This document shows positions 6,521 to 13,233 of a stretch of DNA of 64,000 bases, piece after piece. This DNA comes from Shewanella polaris (GTDB lineage Bacteria > Pseudomonadota > Gammaproteobacteria > Enterobacterales > Shewanellaceae): positions 2,170,001 through 2,234,000 of the forward strand of contig NZ_CP041036.1 in NCBI RefSeq assembly GCF_006385555.1. The letters run 5' to 3'. Made by a program: the position numbers and the translations under genes. The notes under the pieces are model-generated. The model searched no databases and was not told where the DNA came from. It saw only the letters and a list, made by a program, of their open reading frames with translations. The number at the start of each line of letters is the position of its first letter. The first letter of the stretch is position 1.

Positions 6521-6687
6521 ATACTGCGAGGTTCCACAGAATGAGTTTAATTGAGGTAAATATGGATGCAGAATAACGGGAACTGCTATTAAGTATCAAA
6601 CGCTTACTGTTATAGTAAGCTGTTATTTTAGATCTACATCCTGCTTTACACTCAGAAGTGTAACCAGCACTGCATAAGGAAGGCTAA

Positions 6688-7344
6688 GTGAGTATTTTAT
6701 TTTATGATGACAAGGCTGATTCCCTTGCAGAGTTATACCTGTCTCTTTCATTTGACGACGTCCATGGGCGTTGGCTTGAACTTCTCGCAGGACTTAATAC
6801 CATTGATAAAATCCACATTCTTGATGTAGGTGCAGGCTCGGGTCGAGATGCGCGCTATTTAGCCCAGTTGACAGGTGTTGATAATCAAAAAGCATTCGTG
6901 GTGGCAGTTGAGCCCGCAGAGCGTTTGGCGCACATTGGTAAACAGACTACCTTGGGGCTCAATGTCATTTGGATTGACGATATGCTTCCAGAACTTATCA
7001 ATGTAAAAGCTTTGCAGCATAAATATCATCTGGTGTTATTGAGTGCTGTGTGGATGCACCTTGAACCCATACAAAGAAACCAAGCGCTGGCAGCCTTGTC
7101 GGCATTAATGGAGGACAATGGATTAATAGTCATCACACTTCGCCATGGGGAATGTAATGACGAGCGATTAATGTATCCCGTCTATGTGGATGAGATTGTT
7201 CGGCTTGCACCGTTATACGATTTGCAGATGGTGAAGATTACCGATAGAGATGAGGATACCTTAGGTCGAAGCGGTGTATGCTGGCAGACCATGGCATTAA
7301 GGAAGACTTTCAGTGAAGATAATGGGCAAGGAAGGAATTTATAA
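6688..7344 (+). CDS. Class I SAM-dependent methyltransferase
   Basis: A 218-residue methyltransferase started by GTG with AAGGAAGG upstream. Motif I of the Rossmann fold is DVGAGSGRDA (residues 46-55), the acidic ribose-binding residue is in VAVEP, and the motif IV region reads YHLVLLSAVWMHL. No (D/N)PP(Y/W) motif of DNA amino-methyltransferases is visible, so it looks more like a small-molecule or protein methyltransferase of the Methyltransf_11/25 type. Its stop codon overlaps the start codon of the downstream HNH endonuclease gene (TAATG), which implies translational coupling and a joint function. What it methylates is not known. Confidence 0.88.
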   Translation: MSILFYDDKADSLAELYLSLSFDDVHGRWLELLAGLNTIDKIHILDVGAGSGRDARYLAQLTGVDNQKAFVVAVEPAERLAHIGKQTTLGLNVIWIDDMLPELINVKALQHKYHLVLLSAVWMHLEPIQRNQALAALSALMEDNGLIVITLRHGECNDERLMYPVYVDEIVRLAPLYDLQMVKITDRDEDTLGRSGVCWQTMALRKTFSEDNGQGRNL

Positions 7345-8393
7345 TGCTTGAACCTATTCAACAAGTTGCCTTTATTAATTATTTACAACGCCTGTTGGTC
7401 GAAGGTGATTTTGTTGCAACTTACAAGTTTGCTTTGTTAAATGCGATTGCCGACATCTGCATAGAACGTCCACTGAGGCTTGATTTAGACCCAGACAGTC
7501 AAGACAAGGTTTATTACACTGAAATCACTGAAAAATTTATCGAACTCTACTGGCAACATGCCTCACCCTTTGGTGAAGTTGATGGTAAAGCGTTTATCCT
7601 GTTACAAAATACCGGTACTCAAGCTGCAATAATCAATCAGATCTACTTATTACAACAACAAGGCGTAACCAGCATAAGTCAATTGAAGCAACATAAAGAT
7701 TGGCAAAAATTACTCAATAAAGCCTTAAAAGTGCTTAAAGAAGGGCCATTATGGCGTTTACAGCTATTGGCCGGTCAGTTGGACTGCTATTACTATTCAC
7801 ATGATAATTCGAAAAATTATATTCAATTACAGCCGGGGATCAGCTTTTGTTTTCGACGTTTTCATGATCTTGTGGTTGGTTTGGTAAGAAACAGCTGGAT
7901 TGATAAAATACGCGCTTATCCACAAAATCAGGAAGTCATAGGTGACAAGGGTAACTTGAGTGACTTTCTGTTTGGCAGTAATCGCCAGTCATTAATACAA
8001 GCTCGACATGTAATGCATGATATTCAGCATGGTTTATGTTTTTACTGTAAAAGGAAAATTCTAAGAACAGGGCAAGTGGATCATTTCATCCCTTGGGCGA
8101 GATACCCAAATGATCTTGCACATAATTTTGTCCTAGCCCATGACAGCTGTAATCGTCAAAAGAGCGCACACCTTGCAGCCCAAAGCCATAAAGATGCATG
8201 GTATGAACAAAATATAGTTAAACATTCTGCACTAATTACAAGCGAATTAAGTCGATATTTTAGAGCGGACTGTCGTCGTTCAGAGGCTATTGCGAGTTGG
8301 GCTTACCAGCAAGGGTCACAAAGTAATGTTTTACTTTGGTTAGAAGGTAAGACATTTGTGCCTTATTTGGGAAGTTCTGCGATCGATTGCTAA
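7344..8393 (+). CDS. HNH endonuclease coupled to a methyltransferase gene
   Basis: A 349-residue protein with a C-terminal HNH nuclease domain. Zinc cysteines CFYC lie at 232-235, the catalytic His is in VDHFIPW (about 246-247), Asn261 and His266 follow, and a second pair of zinc ligands involves Cys269 in DSCNRQK. The first 225 residues match no domain I recognise and may bind the target or a partner. The ATG overlaps the stop of the upstream methyltransferase gene by one base and has AAGGAAGG as its ribosome binding site. A coupled nuclease and methyltransferase recalls restriction-modification or other anti-phage cassettes, but the methyltransferase lacks DNA-methylase motifs, so that reading is inference. 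Confidence 0.85.
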   Translation: MLEPIQQVAFINYLQRLLVEGDFVATYKFALLNAIADICIERPLRLDLDPDSQDKVYYTEITEKFIELYWQHASPFGEVDGKAFILLQNTGTQAAIINQIYLLQQQGVTSISQLKQHKDWQKLLNKALKVLKEGPLWRLQLLAGQLDCYYYSHDNSKNYIQLQPGISFCFRRFHDLVVGLVRNSWIDKIRAYPQNQEVIGDKGNLSDFLFGSNRQSLIQARHVMHDIQHGLCFYCKRKILRTGQVDHFIPWARYPNDLAHNFVLAHDSCNRQKSAHLAAQSHKDAWYEQNIVKHSALITSELSRYFRADCRRSEAIASWAYQQGSQSNVLLWLEGKTFVPYLGSSAIDC

Positions 8394-8440
8394 ATTAATC
8401 GCTTAATCTCTAAAATTGAATATGGTTTTTATCAAAAAAC

Positions 8441-8474
8441 GCCATAAGACAGGAAAAATTCTCGGTCTTATGGT
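8441..8474. terminator. Weak hairpin after the HNH gene
   Basis: GCCATAAGAC pairs with GTCTTATGGT (one G-T pair) across a 14-base loop, between the end of the HNH gene and the convergent amidohydrolase remnant. There is no good T run on either strand, so termination is only plausible. Confidence 0.4.
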
Positions 8475-8505
8475 GTTACTCAATTTTGAAGTTGTGTTTA
8501 CTCAT

Positions 8506-9330
8506 TTACTGCTTGTATACCACGCCGACTTTCATCACAAAGGTGACGTTTTCCATCAAACTTATGTTATCCAACGGATTGCCATAAACAGCGATAATAT
8601 CAGCTAGGAAACCAGCTTTAATTTGGCCTAAGTTATCTTGTTTTATCAAGGTTGCACTATTAATAGTAGCCGCTTGTAATGCTTGCATCGGCATCATGCC
8701 AAAGGTCACCATGCGGGAAAACTGTTTACCGTTATCGCCATGAGGATAAATAGCCGCATCAGATCCAAATACCATCTTAGCACCTGCTTTAACGGCTTTT
8801 CTAAAGCTATCACGCTGTGCTTGCGACATTTGTTTTTCTTTATTGATATTGGCTTCAGGTACCCCGTTAGCGGCGCCAAAGGCGAGGGTATATTCAGTGT
8901 TGTAAATATCGCAAGATAAATAGGTACCAGCTTTTATAGCCATCTTAATCGCTTCATCGTCCATAAAACTACAATGTTCAATGCTATCAATACCGGCGCG
9001 AATTGCATCTTTAATGCCGCTAGGGCAGCGATAACAAGGCCGCGCATATGCGCTTCATCTGCTGCGCGCCAACTTGGGTGCCTTTAGAGAACACTCCGCC
9101 AGTGGCATAGACTTTAATCGCATTGGCGTTGTATTTATTGTTTTCGCGCACTTTAGTGCGTATTTAGGGGCCGTCGGCAACACCTTGATATTTAGCATGG
9201 GTTTCTGGTGCGGGGAAGTTATCATGGCAATGTCCGCCTTAATACCAATGGCATGTCCTACAGCCCAAATGCGTGGTCCAGGAATATCGCCAGCATCTAT
9301 ACCATATTGTGTATCAATTTGTATTAGTAG
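8506..9330 (-). pseudogene. Decayed amidohydrolase (Xaa-Pro dipeptidase-like)
   Basis: The intact frame 8506-8964 encodes the C-terminal third of a metal-dependent amidohydrolase of the imidazolonepropionase/prolidase-like group: a KMVFGSDAAIYPHGDN segment with the conserved metal-ligand Asp, then MTPMQAL-like helices and a C-terminal ADIIAVYGNPLD. Continuing upstream, the match carries on in shifted frames: RAGIDSIEHCSFMDDEAIK, then GTQVGAQQMK and AHMRGL, then YATGGVFSKG and IDAGDIPGPRIWAVGHA. At least three frame changes, an in-frame stop and missing segments separate these pieces, and the N-terminal metal-binding HxH region is absent. Intact relatives are about 430 residues with a signal peptide. 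The gene is therefore a relic rather than a short functional protein. Confidence 0.85.
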
Positions 9331-9686: not shown

Positions 9687-10277
9687 TTAATAACCCACTT
9701 GTTGGATCACCGCGATTGCCGTTTCATTTCGGCCTTTTTTAGACGGTACCCGATGGCCTGTGTTGGCATTAGTTTTCATGGTTTGAATAAATTGATTCAT
9801 TTGCGGGCCGATGCTGATGTGTATCGGTCGATTTTTCCCGTAATAGTACAGGCGATCAAATTTCAGGTTTTCGCACATCCATTGCGCGACTTGTTGCATA
9901 TCAACACTTTTATCTTCTGTGTTGCTAATGACGGTAAAGTCGCATGCGGCACCTAAACGGTCGCAGATGATTTTTTGATTTTGATTGAGTTCGTGAGAGC
10001 AGTGCTGGTCAAGCTTTGGTGCTATATGTGGATTACGGTTTTTAGCAATTTTTCTGACAAGTTCTGGCGAACAAAAGCCATAGGTTAGCGACAAGGGGCC
10101 AAATTGATCGACAATAGGGTCGAGTATTTGGGTGGCCAGTAAACTGAGGGCGCGCCAAGTGTCAGGCTGTAATGGCAGGTTTTCAATATTATGCTCCAGT
10201 GCTGTTACACCACAATTAATGAGATCTGCATAAGTGAAAAAGCGGCTCGCTTTGCCATTGATATTATAAGTAAACAA
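9687..10277 (-). CDS. M15 peptidase-like hypothetical protein
   Basis: A 196-residue protein starting MFTYNINGKASRFFTY from a TTG codon directly after a stop. The middle and C-terminal parts resemble the hedgehog/DD-peptidase (peptidase M15) fold: APKLDQHCSHE supplies a candidate His ligand, RLGAACDF a candidate Asp ligand and RPIHISIGP a candidate third His. I recall a bacterial hypothetical family with this LTYGFCSPEL...FDRLYYYGKNRPIHIS pattern but no assigned function. There is no signal peptide, which is unusual for a cell wall DD-peptidase, so a cytoplasmic role is likely. The weak start, with an alternative ATG nearby in another frame, raises the possibility that the 5' end is damaged. 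Confidence 0.55.
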   Translation of the reverse strand: MFTYNINGKASRFFTYADLINCGVTALEHNIENLPLQPDTWRALSLLATQILDPIVDQFGPLSLTYGFCSPELVRKIAKNRNPHIAPKLDQHCSHELNQNQKIICDRLGAACDFTVISNTEDKSVDMQQVAQWMCENLKFDRLYYYGKNRPIHISIGPQMNQFIQTMKTNANTGHRVPSKKGRNETAIAVIQQVGY

Positions 10278-10734: not shown

Positions 10735-11205
10735 ATGAATGATGTTGTTGAATCAAACCATGTGATGAAGATCCCTATCGATAAACTTGTTCTTGGCATG
10801 TTTGTTACAGCAATAGATCGTCAACAAAGCAAAGTAGACATTCTTAATCCGGGTAAAATTAAACACCATGATGCCATCATTAAGCTTAAAAATAGTAATG
10901 TCACCACAGTTTGGGTAGACATTGAGCGCTCATCTGACAATTGTGGTTTATTCAAATCTGATAAACCAAACGATTCGATTAAACCACTAGCTCGTAAAGC
11001 GACTGTCACCCGAGATGCAAGACAGCTTCAAGCTAAAAATTTGCTTGCTGAAGCAAAGGGGCTTATTCAAAAGGTATTAGCCGAAACCTATGAAGGTAAA
11101 GCGTTTGACATTACTCAATTTGATGGCCTTGCCGATAAGATGATTGAGACGGTAATGGACAATGAAGATGCTTTTAAATGCATTTTAGCGTTACGTACTA
11201 AAGAT

Positions 11206-11230
11206 TGTCTAGTCCTAAAATAGGTTGACG
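11206..11230. repeat. IS left inverted repeat
   Basis: Begins TGTCTAGTCCTAAAATAGG and matches the complement of 12483-12507 at 19 of 25 positions. It lies immediately next to the GAT target copy at 11203-11205. Confidence 0.9.
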
Positions 11231-11237
11231 GTTTTTA

Positions 11238-11987
11238 TTAAGCCAGTTGGAACTCCCGACTGGCTTTTTCATGCACTTCGTTTGGGGTTTTCATTCCTAA
11301 ACTAAGGTGCGGTCTTAACTCGTTATAAATCCTAATAGATTCTTTGATGAGTATTGCCAGCTCCTTCATCGTACGACAGCGGTAAAGTAAAAACTCTTGC
11401 TTCAAAATACCATTCACTCGCTCAGCTAACGCATTCTGATAACAATCATACCCATCTGTCATCGATGGCCTTATCGCATTCGCAGCCAATTTATGTTGAT
11501 ATTCTGCTGAGCAGTACTGTATCCCTCTATCTGAATGATGAATGACATCACTGGTTGTCTGACGATTCTTTATCGTCATCTCCAATGCTTTAACAACATC
11601 ACTGGCTTTCATTTCATCACTTAATTCATAACCCATTATTTTTCTTGAATATGCATCTGTGACTAATGATAAATAGTGAGTTCCTTCGTCTGATTTTACG
11701 TAGGTTATGTCACTGACAAATACCTCTTCAACGCTCTTCACCACTCTGTCTTTGAGTAAGTTTGGGTGTTTTCTCAACCAATGGTGGCTATGGGTTGTCT
11801 TGGTGTAATTCTTCCTAGGCTTTACTAACATATTGTGTTGTTTTAAATACTGAAATAGGCCGTCCCTACCTAGCTTTATGCCTTGTTCAAGTAACTGTGG
11901 CTTGATGAGTTGATAAAGCTTACGCGTACCCACTCTGGGCATGAACTGACGCCAATACATAACCATAGTCATCACCGGTTTTAACAT
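11238..11987 (-). CDS. IS3-family transposase OrfB (rve integrase core)
   Basis: The 249-residue frame from the ATG at 11987 holds the integrase catalytic core with the DDE triad: Asp in VSDITYVKSD, Asp in IHHSDRGIQY, and Glu in ALAERVNGILKQE. The same frame is open further upstream to about 12085, adding a helix-turn-helix-like LATASRQFNLSRQAVYQW, so the true product is probably an OrfAB fusion made by a -1 frameshift on the AAAAAG run at 12080-12085. OrfB provides strand cleavage and transfer. The catalytic residues are intact, which suggests the element may still move. Confidence 0.92.
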   Translation of the reverse strand: MLKPVMTMVMYWRQFMPRVGTRKLYQLIKPQLLEQGIKLGRDGLFQYLKQHNMLVKPRKNYTKTTHSHHWLRKHPNLLKDRVVKSVEEVFVSDITYVKSDEGTHYLSLVTDAYSRKIMGYELSDEMKASDVVKALEMTIKNRQTTSDVIHHSDRGIQYCSAEYQHKLAANAIRPSMTDGYDCYQNALAERVNGILKQEFLLYRCRTMKELAILIKESIRIYNELRPHLSLGMKTPNEVHEKASREFQLA

Positions 11988-12070
11988 GTCAGCTCTTGCT
12001 GCTAAGCGCTGCTTCCATTGATAAACAGCTTGTCTTGATAGGTTAAACTGCCGACTCGCTGTCGCTAGCT

Positions 12071-12466
12071 TTACAGTGCCTTTTTCTTTGGCAAGCCAGA
12101 GCGTTCGGCTAAGTACTTTTTTTCTAAATCAATACCGTACTCATTTTTAAGTAACTCGACCATATCGCCATAAATCATATTTTTCATTTCGAGATTGGAG
12201 ACTTGTTTCTCTAATCGTTTGATTTTCTGGGCGGGTGTTTCTGTAGATTTGGACATAGGTGAATGCTCAATCGGCTGGGACCAATCTAATCTACCATGTT
12301 TTCGTAACCATGTTAGGACGGTACTTCTCCCTTGAATGCCATAGTGGTTTTGAGCTTGCTTATACGTTAGCTCGCCTTTTTCTACTTGACTAACAACCGC
12401 TAATTTAAAGCCTAATGTGTAATCTCGTTGAGTACGTTTTATATTGATTGATACTGAAGGTTTCAT
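12071..12466 (-). CDS. IS3-family transposase OrfA (DNA-binding)
   Basis: A 131-residue protein with an N-terminal helix-turn-helix (YTLGFKLAVVSQVEKGELTY, then AQNHYGI and STVLTWLRKHG) and a leucine-zipper-like coiled coil (KIKRLEKQVSNLEMKNMIYG) that is typical of IS3-family OrfA. It recognises the inverted repeats. The start ATG has GGAGA upstream. It ends LPKKKAL, where the A-rich codons form the slippery site for -1 frameshifting into OrfB. Confidence 0.92.
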   Translation of the reverse strand: MKPSVSINIKRTQRDYTLGFKLAVVSQVEKGELTYKQAQNHYGIQGRSTVLTWLRKHGRLDWSQPIEHSPMSKSTETPAQKIKRLEKQVSNLEMKNMIYGDMVELLKNEYGIDLEKKYLAERSGLPKKKAL

Positions 12467-12482
12467 AGATAAGTCTCCAATG

Positions 12483-12507
12483 TGTCAACTTATCTCAGGA
12501 CGGGACA
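12483..12507. repeat. IS right inverted repeat
   Basis: Read on the minus strand it begins TGTCCCGTCCTGAGATAAG, the partner of the left repeat. It is followed by the second GAT target copy at 12508-12510. Confidence 0.9.
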
Positions 12508-13233
12508 GATGCTTACTTGCTAGAACATTCCATTAATGTTGCTTTTTTATTGATTACCTTTGGTCAACATCTAAAACTTGATATTGATGTACTTAGACAG
12601 ATGGCTGTGGGGGGTATTTTGCATGATATCGGTAAAATAAAAGTCGATGATACCATTCTCAATAAACCCAAAAAGCTAACGCCTGAAGAGTTCGAACATA
12701 TGAAATTGCATCAATTTTTTGCAATACAAATAATGGATGACACTAAAGGTTTATCGCAGATGAGCAAAGACGTATGCTTGATGCATCACGAAAAAATTGA
12801 TGGTAACGGTTATCCAAACGGCTTAAAGGGCGATGAAATTCCACTTCATGGGCGCATGAGCTGCATCGTTGATATATTTGATGCTCTGACTGCCGAACGT
12901 TGTTATAAAGAGGCGATGAGTCCTGCTGCTGCATTTAAGGTTTTGATAAGCTTAACCCCATTTCACTTAGATCAATCCTTAGTTTATGAGTTTATCCGCT
13001 GTATCGGTGTATACCCAGTTGGTTCGTTAGTGTTACTTTCTGATCAAAGAGTAGGCATTGTTTGGGAAGCAAAAGACCGTGATGTATTTCACCCTATTGT
13101 AAAGTGCTTTTACTCGCAAAAATATAAACGCTATACCGAAATTGTCATGGTAGATTTATTAAAAACATCGGTGGATATTGAACGAGGTATTACTCCTAGC
13201 AGTTTAGGTATTAATCCCGCACCATTTTATTGA

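Follow-up and report, generated by a model that had tools for sequence, protein, structure and literature searches.

Two adjoining genes of Shewanella polaris, the first for a methyltransferase and the second for a predicted HNH nuclease, raise the question of whether they form a unit and, if so, what kind of system that unit represents. They lie near the start of the window, by which we mean the whole 64,000-nucleotide stretch analysed here (NZ_CP041036.1, positions 2,170,001 to 2,234,000). The first-pass annotation, made from the sequence alone, had reported a one-base overlap of the two genes within TAATG, and both open reading frames were found exactly as described. The features of the locus are as follows.

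6676..6683, + strand: putative ribosome-binding-like stretch AAGGAAGG, 5' of the methyltransferase gene (purine-rich, by eye)
6688..7344, + strand: open reading frame for a class I SAM-dependent methyltransferase (MTase), 218 aa, GTG start, subtype 'MTase A'
6823..6849, + strand: SAM-binding motif I, DVGAGSGRD, residues 46-54 of the MTase (from the alignment of 19 Shewanella MTases)
7328..7337, + strand: putative ribosome-binding-like stretch AAGGAAGGAA, 5' of the HNH gene and within the end of the MTase gene (purine-rich, by eye)
7342..7346, + strand: TAATG stop/start overlap of one base (TAA 7342-7344, ATG 7344-7346)
7344..8393, + strand: open reading frame for a predicted HNH nuclease, 349 aa (Pfam HNH_4 and HNH; AlphaFold2 model pLDDT 91.9, pTM 0.90)
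7344..7973, + strand: N-terminal domain of the HNH protein, residues 1-210, with an ATYKFALL...ELYW signature (conserved residues in the alignment)
7983..8330, + strand: HNH nuclease domain, residues 214-329, with catalytic-type D246-H247, N261 and N270
8438..8477, + strand: hairpin 3' of the HNH gene, 13-nt arms, 92% complementary, 14-nt loop; inverted repeat, possible terminator

The hairpin sits between the HNH gene and a convergent amidohydrolase fragment, and the base composition of the pair (GC 0.41) is no different from that of its flanks. Only a 152-aa open frame of the amidohydrolase remnant is seen downstream (8506-8964), the region being alignable over 845-854 bases in three relatives. 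Beyond it, the frame 9687-10277 encodes 196 aa that match no Pfam family; among the loci compared, a homologue was found in L003 alone, where it closely follows the pair. Further on, an IS3-like element with an rve integrase core (~11238-12466, ~2.8 kb downstream of the pair) interrupts an HD-domain gene (10735-13233), splitting it into a DUF3391 part (10735-11223) and an HD part (12517-13233). The nearby IS and pseudogenes noted earlier are therefore real but distinct from the pair, the IS being an insertion of its own. Its use as a sign of mobility for the pair is not supported: a search for target duplications around the two genes revealed none above 7 bases, and the repeats there are short, imperfect, inverted and chance-like.

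The HNH protein scored above the cut-offs for Pfam HNH_4 and HNH, and an alignment of 63 sequences, that of the window among them, shows no variation at D246, H247, N261, N270, C232, C235 or C269, which upholds the initial description of a full HNH site. In the N-terminal domain, T26, Y27, K28, Y69 and W70 are likewise invariant across the 63 sequences. Pfam and NCBIfam scans of 58 members returned HNH families, an S24 tail in some and scattered weak matches, with no library family for residues 1-210; Foldseek searches of the protein against PDB and BFVD recovered almost only HNH proteins, a result that decides for neither a new nor a known N-terminal fold. The earlier remark that some 225 N-terminal residues match nothing known therefore stands for the libraries searched, but the region is common to two other HNH lineages. 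In profile comparisons, a third HNH lineage (L055, L212, L213 and L217) matched the window protein at 99%, and its N-terminal part alone did so at 90% (E 1e-6). The HNH half of a family of fused MTase-HNH proteins matched window residues 23-281 with a probability of 97% (E 5e-11), its N-terminal part alone giving a weak 28% (E 6e-4), where the fused-family profile was built from 30 of 120 listed proteins and an unrelated control gave 0.2%. N-terminal sharing is thus clear with the third lineage and weaker with the fused family. Family scans detected no known modified-base-binding domain in the N-terminus. A suspected likeness to the phosphorothioate-binding domain (SBD) gained no support from PF13391, NF045808, inspection of motifs or the 58-member scans, and an ABC-3C CTD7 assignment, prompted by a weak Pfam match in 4 of the 58 members, was dropped because CTD7 proteins look unrelated by eye.

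Some relatives carry a further domain. Among the best 120 of 2517 HNH relatives (E up to 0.001; some of these, as of the 1795 fused-query matches described below, may share one domain only), 25 are longer than 470 residues, and the C-terminal stretches of long relatives align as a LexA/UmuD-like S24 domain in which the Cys-Gly and the serine are kept. In our reading, the complete S24 domains have an arginine at the position expected for the catalytic lysine, so self-cleavage of the HNH-S24 relatives is uncertain.

Pfam gave the MTase 11 matches, four of them to generic methyltransferase families at scores above the cut-offs and none to a DNA-methylase family. DNA methyltransferases carry the catalytic motif [DNS]PP[YFW] or PC; both forms are absent by eye from the translation, and neither Pfam nor Foldseek revealed a target-recognition domain. 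Residues D46, G48, A49, G50, G52, R53 and D54 are invariant in the 19 aligned Shewanella MTases, the window's included, so that, as judged by alignment, the pair combines an HNH site of conserved type with a SAM-binding motif. The AlphaFold2 model (pLDDT 90.9) found its best Foldseek match in cg3271 (3h2b), with further matches to UbiG, TehB and Trm9, and the nearest folds are those of small-molecule, protein or tRNA methyltransferases. The claim that the enzyme lacks DNA-methylase motifs is accordingly corroborated by both family and fold. An identity with mad2 of the MADS system was considered and rejected as generic methyltransferase similarity: the match covers positions 292-449 of the 492 in the profile (E 3.5e-11), and the same model matches a type I methyltransferase far better (E 1.5e-54). 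PADLOC recognised no other mad genes among ten window neighbours, and the pair is hence not a MADS system, which comprises mad2 together with other mad genes.

The association of the two genes extends well beyond the window. A match to the HNH protein was found in 24 of the 145 genomes searched (the window's included); 19 matches are full length, all in Shewanella, and the MTase gene lies directly upstream in all 19 of these loci. Searching Shewanella with the MTase gave 39 matches in 35 of 97 genomes, of which 30 were read and nine left out: 22 adjoin an HNH gene, six are fused to an HNH part (two of them interrupted) and two have no HNH within ~1.5 kb. MTase and HNH distances correlate at r 0.83 (171 pairs from 19 loci), a value reached in none of 2000 permutations, of which shared ancestry alone would explain some. 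A fused MTase-HNH query from an order-level relative yielded 1795 matches (E up to 0.001) among 7998 candidates scored, and by our own count both MTase and HNH_4 domains are present in 118 of the best 120; the organisms among the matches listed are mostly marine gammaproteobacteria. The HNH family itself is rare, occurring in 3 of 398 and 2 of 185 genomes with the window's own counted each time. From these comparisons the coupling is not chance, and the two genes constitute a real unit, as the first-pass annotation had proposed: MTase and HNH are adjacent or fused in 28 of the 30 Shewanella MTase loci, and a fused family exists. A metabolic methyltransferase standing beside an HNH gene by accident, the alternative named at the outset, is not what the recurrent pairing and fusion indicate.

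Outside Shewanella, the partner of the nuclease is exchangeable. We read 34 loci (21 genome matches, 7 of 15 plasmid matches, 3 on viral contigs and 3 from genome samples), a set that includes L023, where the MTase lies beyond the sequence examined, and L013, which was not classified. An intact MTase lies directly upstream in 20 of the 34, 19 being of a second subtype, B, and one (L066) of subtype A, while L019 is an MTase-HNH fusion. In six loci a HIT-family protein takes the place of the MTase (L012, L014, L030, L060, L062 and L202), the HNH frame of L030 being itself broken. The MTase is separated from the HNH gene by other genes in L022 and L056, where it lies two to four genes away, the sequence examined in L022 covering the MTase end only. 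Beside an open HNH frame, the MTase is broken by a frameshift or stop in L058, L061 and L065, the last being a metagenome-derived viral contig in which sequencing error is possible. The third HNH lineage has the opposite order, with the HNH gene first, the MTase after it and the reading frames overlapping.

The MTases also recur with an unrelated nuclease. In an independent sample, subtype B was found in 9 of 398 genomes: four adjoin an HNH gene, three adjoin or are fused to a PLD-helicase, one adjoins a helicase-S24 protein and one is alone. Those beside HNH genes accompany the window's family (L068/L203) or the third lineage (L212, L213 and L217). In L215 and L216, the MTase adjoins a PLD-helicase-S24 protein with overlapping open frames; L163 (3744-7604) encodes a single 1286-aa MTase-PLD-helicase-S24-DUF3427 frame; in L214 the helicase-S24 protein has no visible nuclease part; and in L218 the MTase stands alone. 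PLD parts were judged by BLAST alignment to a helicase with a Pfam-recognised PLD domain. MTase A, too, adjoins a PLD-helicase-S24-DUF3427 protein. Among 11 DUF3427 helicases from 200 genomes, two are accompanied by MTase A or B (L162 and L163), one lies 10 bases from the end of an MTase-HNH fusion (L161), and one has its start overlapped by a protein with a Nudix box recognised by eye (L165, 2935-3378), a third kind of small-enzyme partner; no MTase, HNH or Nudix partner was seen in seven of the 11 loci, L168 being cut at a contig end. On a Pseudoalteromonas plasmid, an HNH gene converges on a DUF3427 helicase 12 bases away, which PADLOC labels a type IV methyl-directed enzyme. The S24 domains of L215, L216, L162 and L163 and those of the HNH-S24 relatives (e.g. 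P0092) align as one kind, in which Cys-Gly and Ser are retained and, in our reading, Arg occupies the position expected for Lys.

The genomic context of the pair differs between genera. In 9 of 12 Acinetobacter loci, a defence-type gene lies within ~3 kb of the pair by individual PADLOC scans, this and the following being raw, uncontrolled counts; L023 was left out as near-identical to L022, and 98 neighbouring ORFs of at least 150 aa were scanned together. These neighbours comprise restriction systems of type IIG (L016), type I (L017, L026, L031 and L032) and type III (L021), a DrmMII-like or type II methyltransferase (L024), bSEFIR (L025) and a UvrD-type helicase resembling those of retrons and Gabija (L027), while L020, L022 and L028 gave no defence match for the one or two proteins tested singly. 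By annotation, four of the seven plasmid loci carry defence genes, namely McrBC with a type I subunit (L058), a CRISPR I-F variant (L059), BREX (L061) and a type IV-like helicase (L056), and the other three have no recognised defence gene. Within Shewanella, a defence system was located in 2 of 10 named loci, Druantia type III in L007 and McrBC in L010. Of the 90 ORFs flanking these loci, 62 were scanned; 27 more share a cluster with a scanned ORF, which leaves L003:10736-11188 as the only one unrepresented. Further PADLOC matches in this set, among those listed (25 of 36 families), include PDC-S04, PD-T4-6, mad3 and mad6, with no locus assigned. The neighbours in most Shewanella loci resemble ordinary chromosomal genes, which counts against a defence reading, and the ten window neighbours gave no PADLOC match except one weak, generic match to a histidine kinase. 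The expectation that the pair falls in defence islands is thus realised for its relatives in other genera, which sit among defence genes, but not around the window itself; an exclusively housekeeping context, which would have spoken against the idea, is equally not what emerged. Taken across genomes, co-occurrence, fusion, partner exchange and, in other genera, proximity to defence genes are established features of this gene pair.

The pair is also patchily present. Its site in the window is empty in three of the six relatives compared (L145, L146 and L149). There the CLCA_X and amidohydrolase genes keep their order, and the gap separating the aligned segments is 226-519 bases where the window has 2.0 kb; in the remaining three relatives, alignment is confined to the upstream flank. 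CLCA_X, the gene upstream of the pair, is common in Shewanella, occurring in 83 of 97 genomes. Among 50,697 phage records, none matched the HNH protein. It is encoded, though, on three predicted viral contigs, and the family may therefore itself ride on prophages. LexA-type boxes, none of them perfect, occur upstream in 6 of 33 loci, where shuffled sequences predict 2.5, a frequency slightly above chance at most. A gene for SRAP, an SOS peptidase, near L062 and L063 was considered as a component and rejected, both sequences matching no other locus compared.

How, then, does the pair relate to known systems? The HNH domain (residues 214-329) shows a modest structural match to the modification-dependent HNH enzymes EcoKMcrA and TagI, whereas no counterpart of the N-terminal domain turned up among library families or structures; to our knowledge, neither enzyme has an MTase partner. 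The HNH domain also bears a weak similarity to Septu PtuB and retron HNH effectors, but the PtuB score is 15.6 against a cut-off of 150, no ATPase gene of the Septu kind lies directly beside the pair, and PADLOC assigned none of ten window neighbours to Septu or retrons, placing the pair in neither group. Unlike Cas9, the window protein matched HNH families only and no RuvC-like family in Pfam. The pair likewise falls outside restriction-modification types I-III, which combine a DNA methyltransferase motif with site recognition. A closer thread leads to the SauUSI-like type IV enzymes, which consist of a PLD nuclease, an SF2 helicase and DUF3427: some pair or fuse with MTase A or B, some share the S24 kind with HNH relatives, and in two loci a mere 10-12 bases separate the DUF3427 helicase from an HNH gene like the window's. 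Their nuclease fold is, however, unrelated, and the window protein, for which only HNH families match and no PLD, helicase or DUF3427 family in Pfam, is not a SauUSI family member. SauUSI itself, in the excerpted text of PMC3874153, cleaves m5C and hm5C DNA and acts as a single polypeptide. Type IV systems are recognised by a domain that binds modified DNA (SRA, EVE, SBD and similar). We do not class the pair among them because its pairing departs from the definition, as given in the excerpted text of PMC12707154, and its recognition of modified DNA is putative. Finally, type II Thoeris includes ThsC, a HIT-family protein hypothesised in the consulted part of PMC8565338 to be a nucleotide-signal enzyme in defence; the likeness lies in the HIT partner of relatives of the pair, not in the window.

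The interpretation we prefer, with a probability of about one half, is that the pair is a small restriction-type, type IV-like defence cassette with an exchangeable accessory enzyme. The HNH protein would be the effector that cuts invading DNA, and its N-terminal 210 residues would recognise the target, which by analogy with type IV restriction is most likely DNA with a foreign or modified feature; this domain is probably the target-sensing or the partner-binding part of the protein. The MTase, a predicted non-DNA methylase, may license or tune the nuclease, with either the nuclease or a small molecule resembling a nucleotide as its substrate, a choice that we favour because a HIT protein can take its place and a Nudix protein lies beside one DUF3427 helicase. 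Licensing or tuning, rather than restraint, is tentatively suggested because three loci combine a broken MTase with an intact HNH gene; given the open HNH frames there, the MTase would not be needed to keep the nuclease harmless. A bolder extension, in which the exchangeable MTase, HIT or Nudix enzyme produces or eliminates a nucleotide-type signal by which two unrelated kinds of cutter are gated, HNH nucleases with a new N-terminal sensor domain and PLD-helicase type IV enzymes, amounting to an unrecognised class of signal-gated restriction, strikes us as rather doubtful.

Several other explanations draw on the same observations. The pair was initially suspected to be an uncharacterised defence, toxin-antitoxin or nucleic-acid-processing system, and while the defence-type option is supported, a strict toxin-antitoxin module is weakened by loci whose HNH gene is intact although the MTase is broken. 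Such a module, in which HNH would be a toxin that damages DNA, kept inactive through binding or methylation by an MTase synthesised before it, accords with a partner gene that comes first and overlaps or lies close, with the fused forms, with the near-constant pairing and with three MTases that have no nuclease nearby (two in Shewanella, one elsewhere), as for a lone antitoxin. The open HNH frames of L058, L061 and L065, few as they are, the position of the MTase in L022 and L056, at two to four genes' distance from an intact HNH gene, and the leading position of the HNH gene in the third lineage make it unlikely. Those broken-MTase loci also weigh on the idea that the nuclease attacks DNA with abnormal bases while its partner, be it MTase, HIT or Nudix, clears away the corresponding abnormal nucleotide, or renders it harmless, and so keeps it out of host DNA. 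Nucleotide conjugates are the substrates of HIT and Nudix enzymes, and the HIT replacements in 6 of 34 non-Shewanella loci and the Nudix-box protein overlapping the helicase of L165 fit this scheme, yet the Nudix case is single and the MTase has no assigned substrate; we regard such pool cleaning as distinctly unlikely.

A pair that repairs or processes nucleic acids, has no part in defence and has spread by gene exchange would suit the ordinary chromosomal neighbours in the window and most Shewanella loci and the LexA/UmuD-like S24 domain of some relatives. Patchy presence with empty sites, the many unrelated defence systems nearby in other genera and the near-chance frequency of LexA-type boxes render it decidedly improbable. 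Classical restriction-modification, with the MTase methylating host DNA and the HNH protein cutting unmethylated DNA, would agree with a paired, overlapping and fused methyltransferase and nuclease and with the restriction-modification systems nearby in other genera. We reject it as very improbable because the MTase lacks a DNA-methylase motif, and with it any such Pfam family or visible target-recognition domain, and because it can be replaced by a HIT protein; we know of no HIT protein that modifies DNA.

If the type IV-like cassette is the correct reading, a small non-DNA methyltransferase, found repeatedly in the company of two unrelated cutters and replaceable by a HIT protein, would constitute an added layer of control on restriction. 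It would also supply a prediction for many proteins that bear no more than the label 'HNH endonuclease' or 'class I SAM-dependent methyltransferase', and it makes short experiments possible, on the substrate of the MTase and on cutting by the HNH protein with or without the MTase. No description of an MTase-HNH pair was found in the open-licence literature, a scope within which its absence from print is not established.

Two further observations concern the neighbours of the pair in Acinetobacter. In L022 and L023 (380-7944 in each), two large genes of 1191 and 1327 aa adjoin the HNH gene; in L022 they separate it from the MTase end, and the copies there gave no PADLOC match. The genes that follow resemble, by eye, the BREX order of L061, and the large genes could be an unnamed defence system. 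Separately, a 337-aa cysteine-containing protein, whose L031 copy had no PADLOC match, is encoded beside the pair in L020 (8996-10018), L031 (8998-10011) and L032 (8484-9497) and likewise, as a relative with 31% identity, in the Shewanella locus L039 (738-1307).
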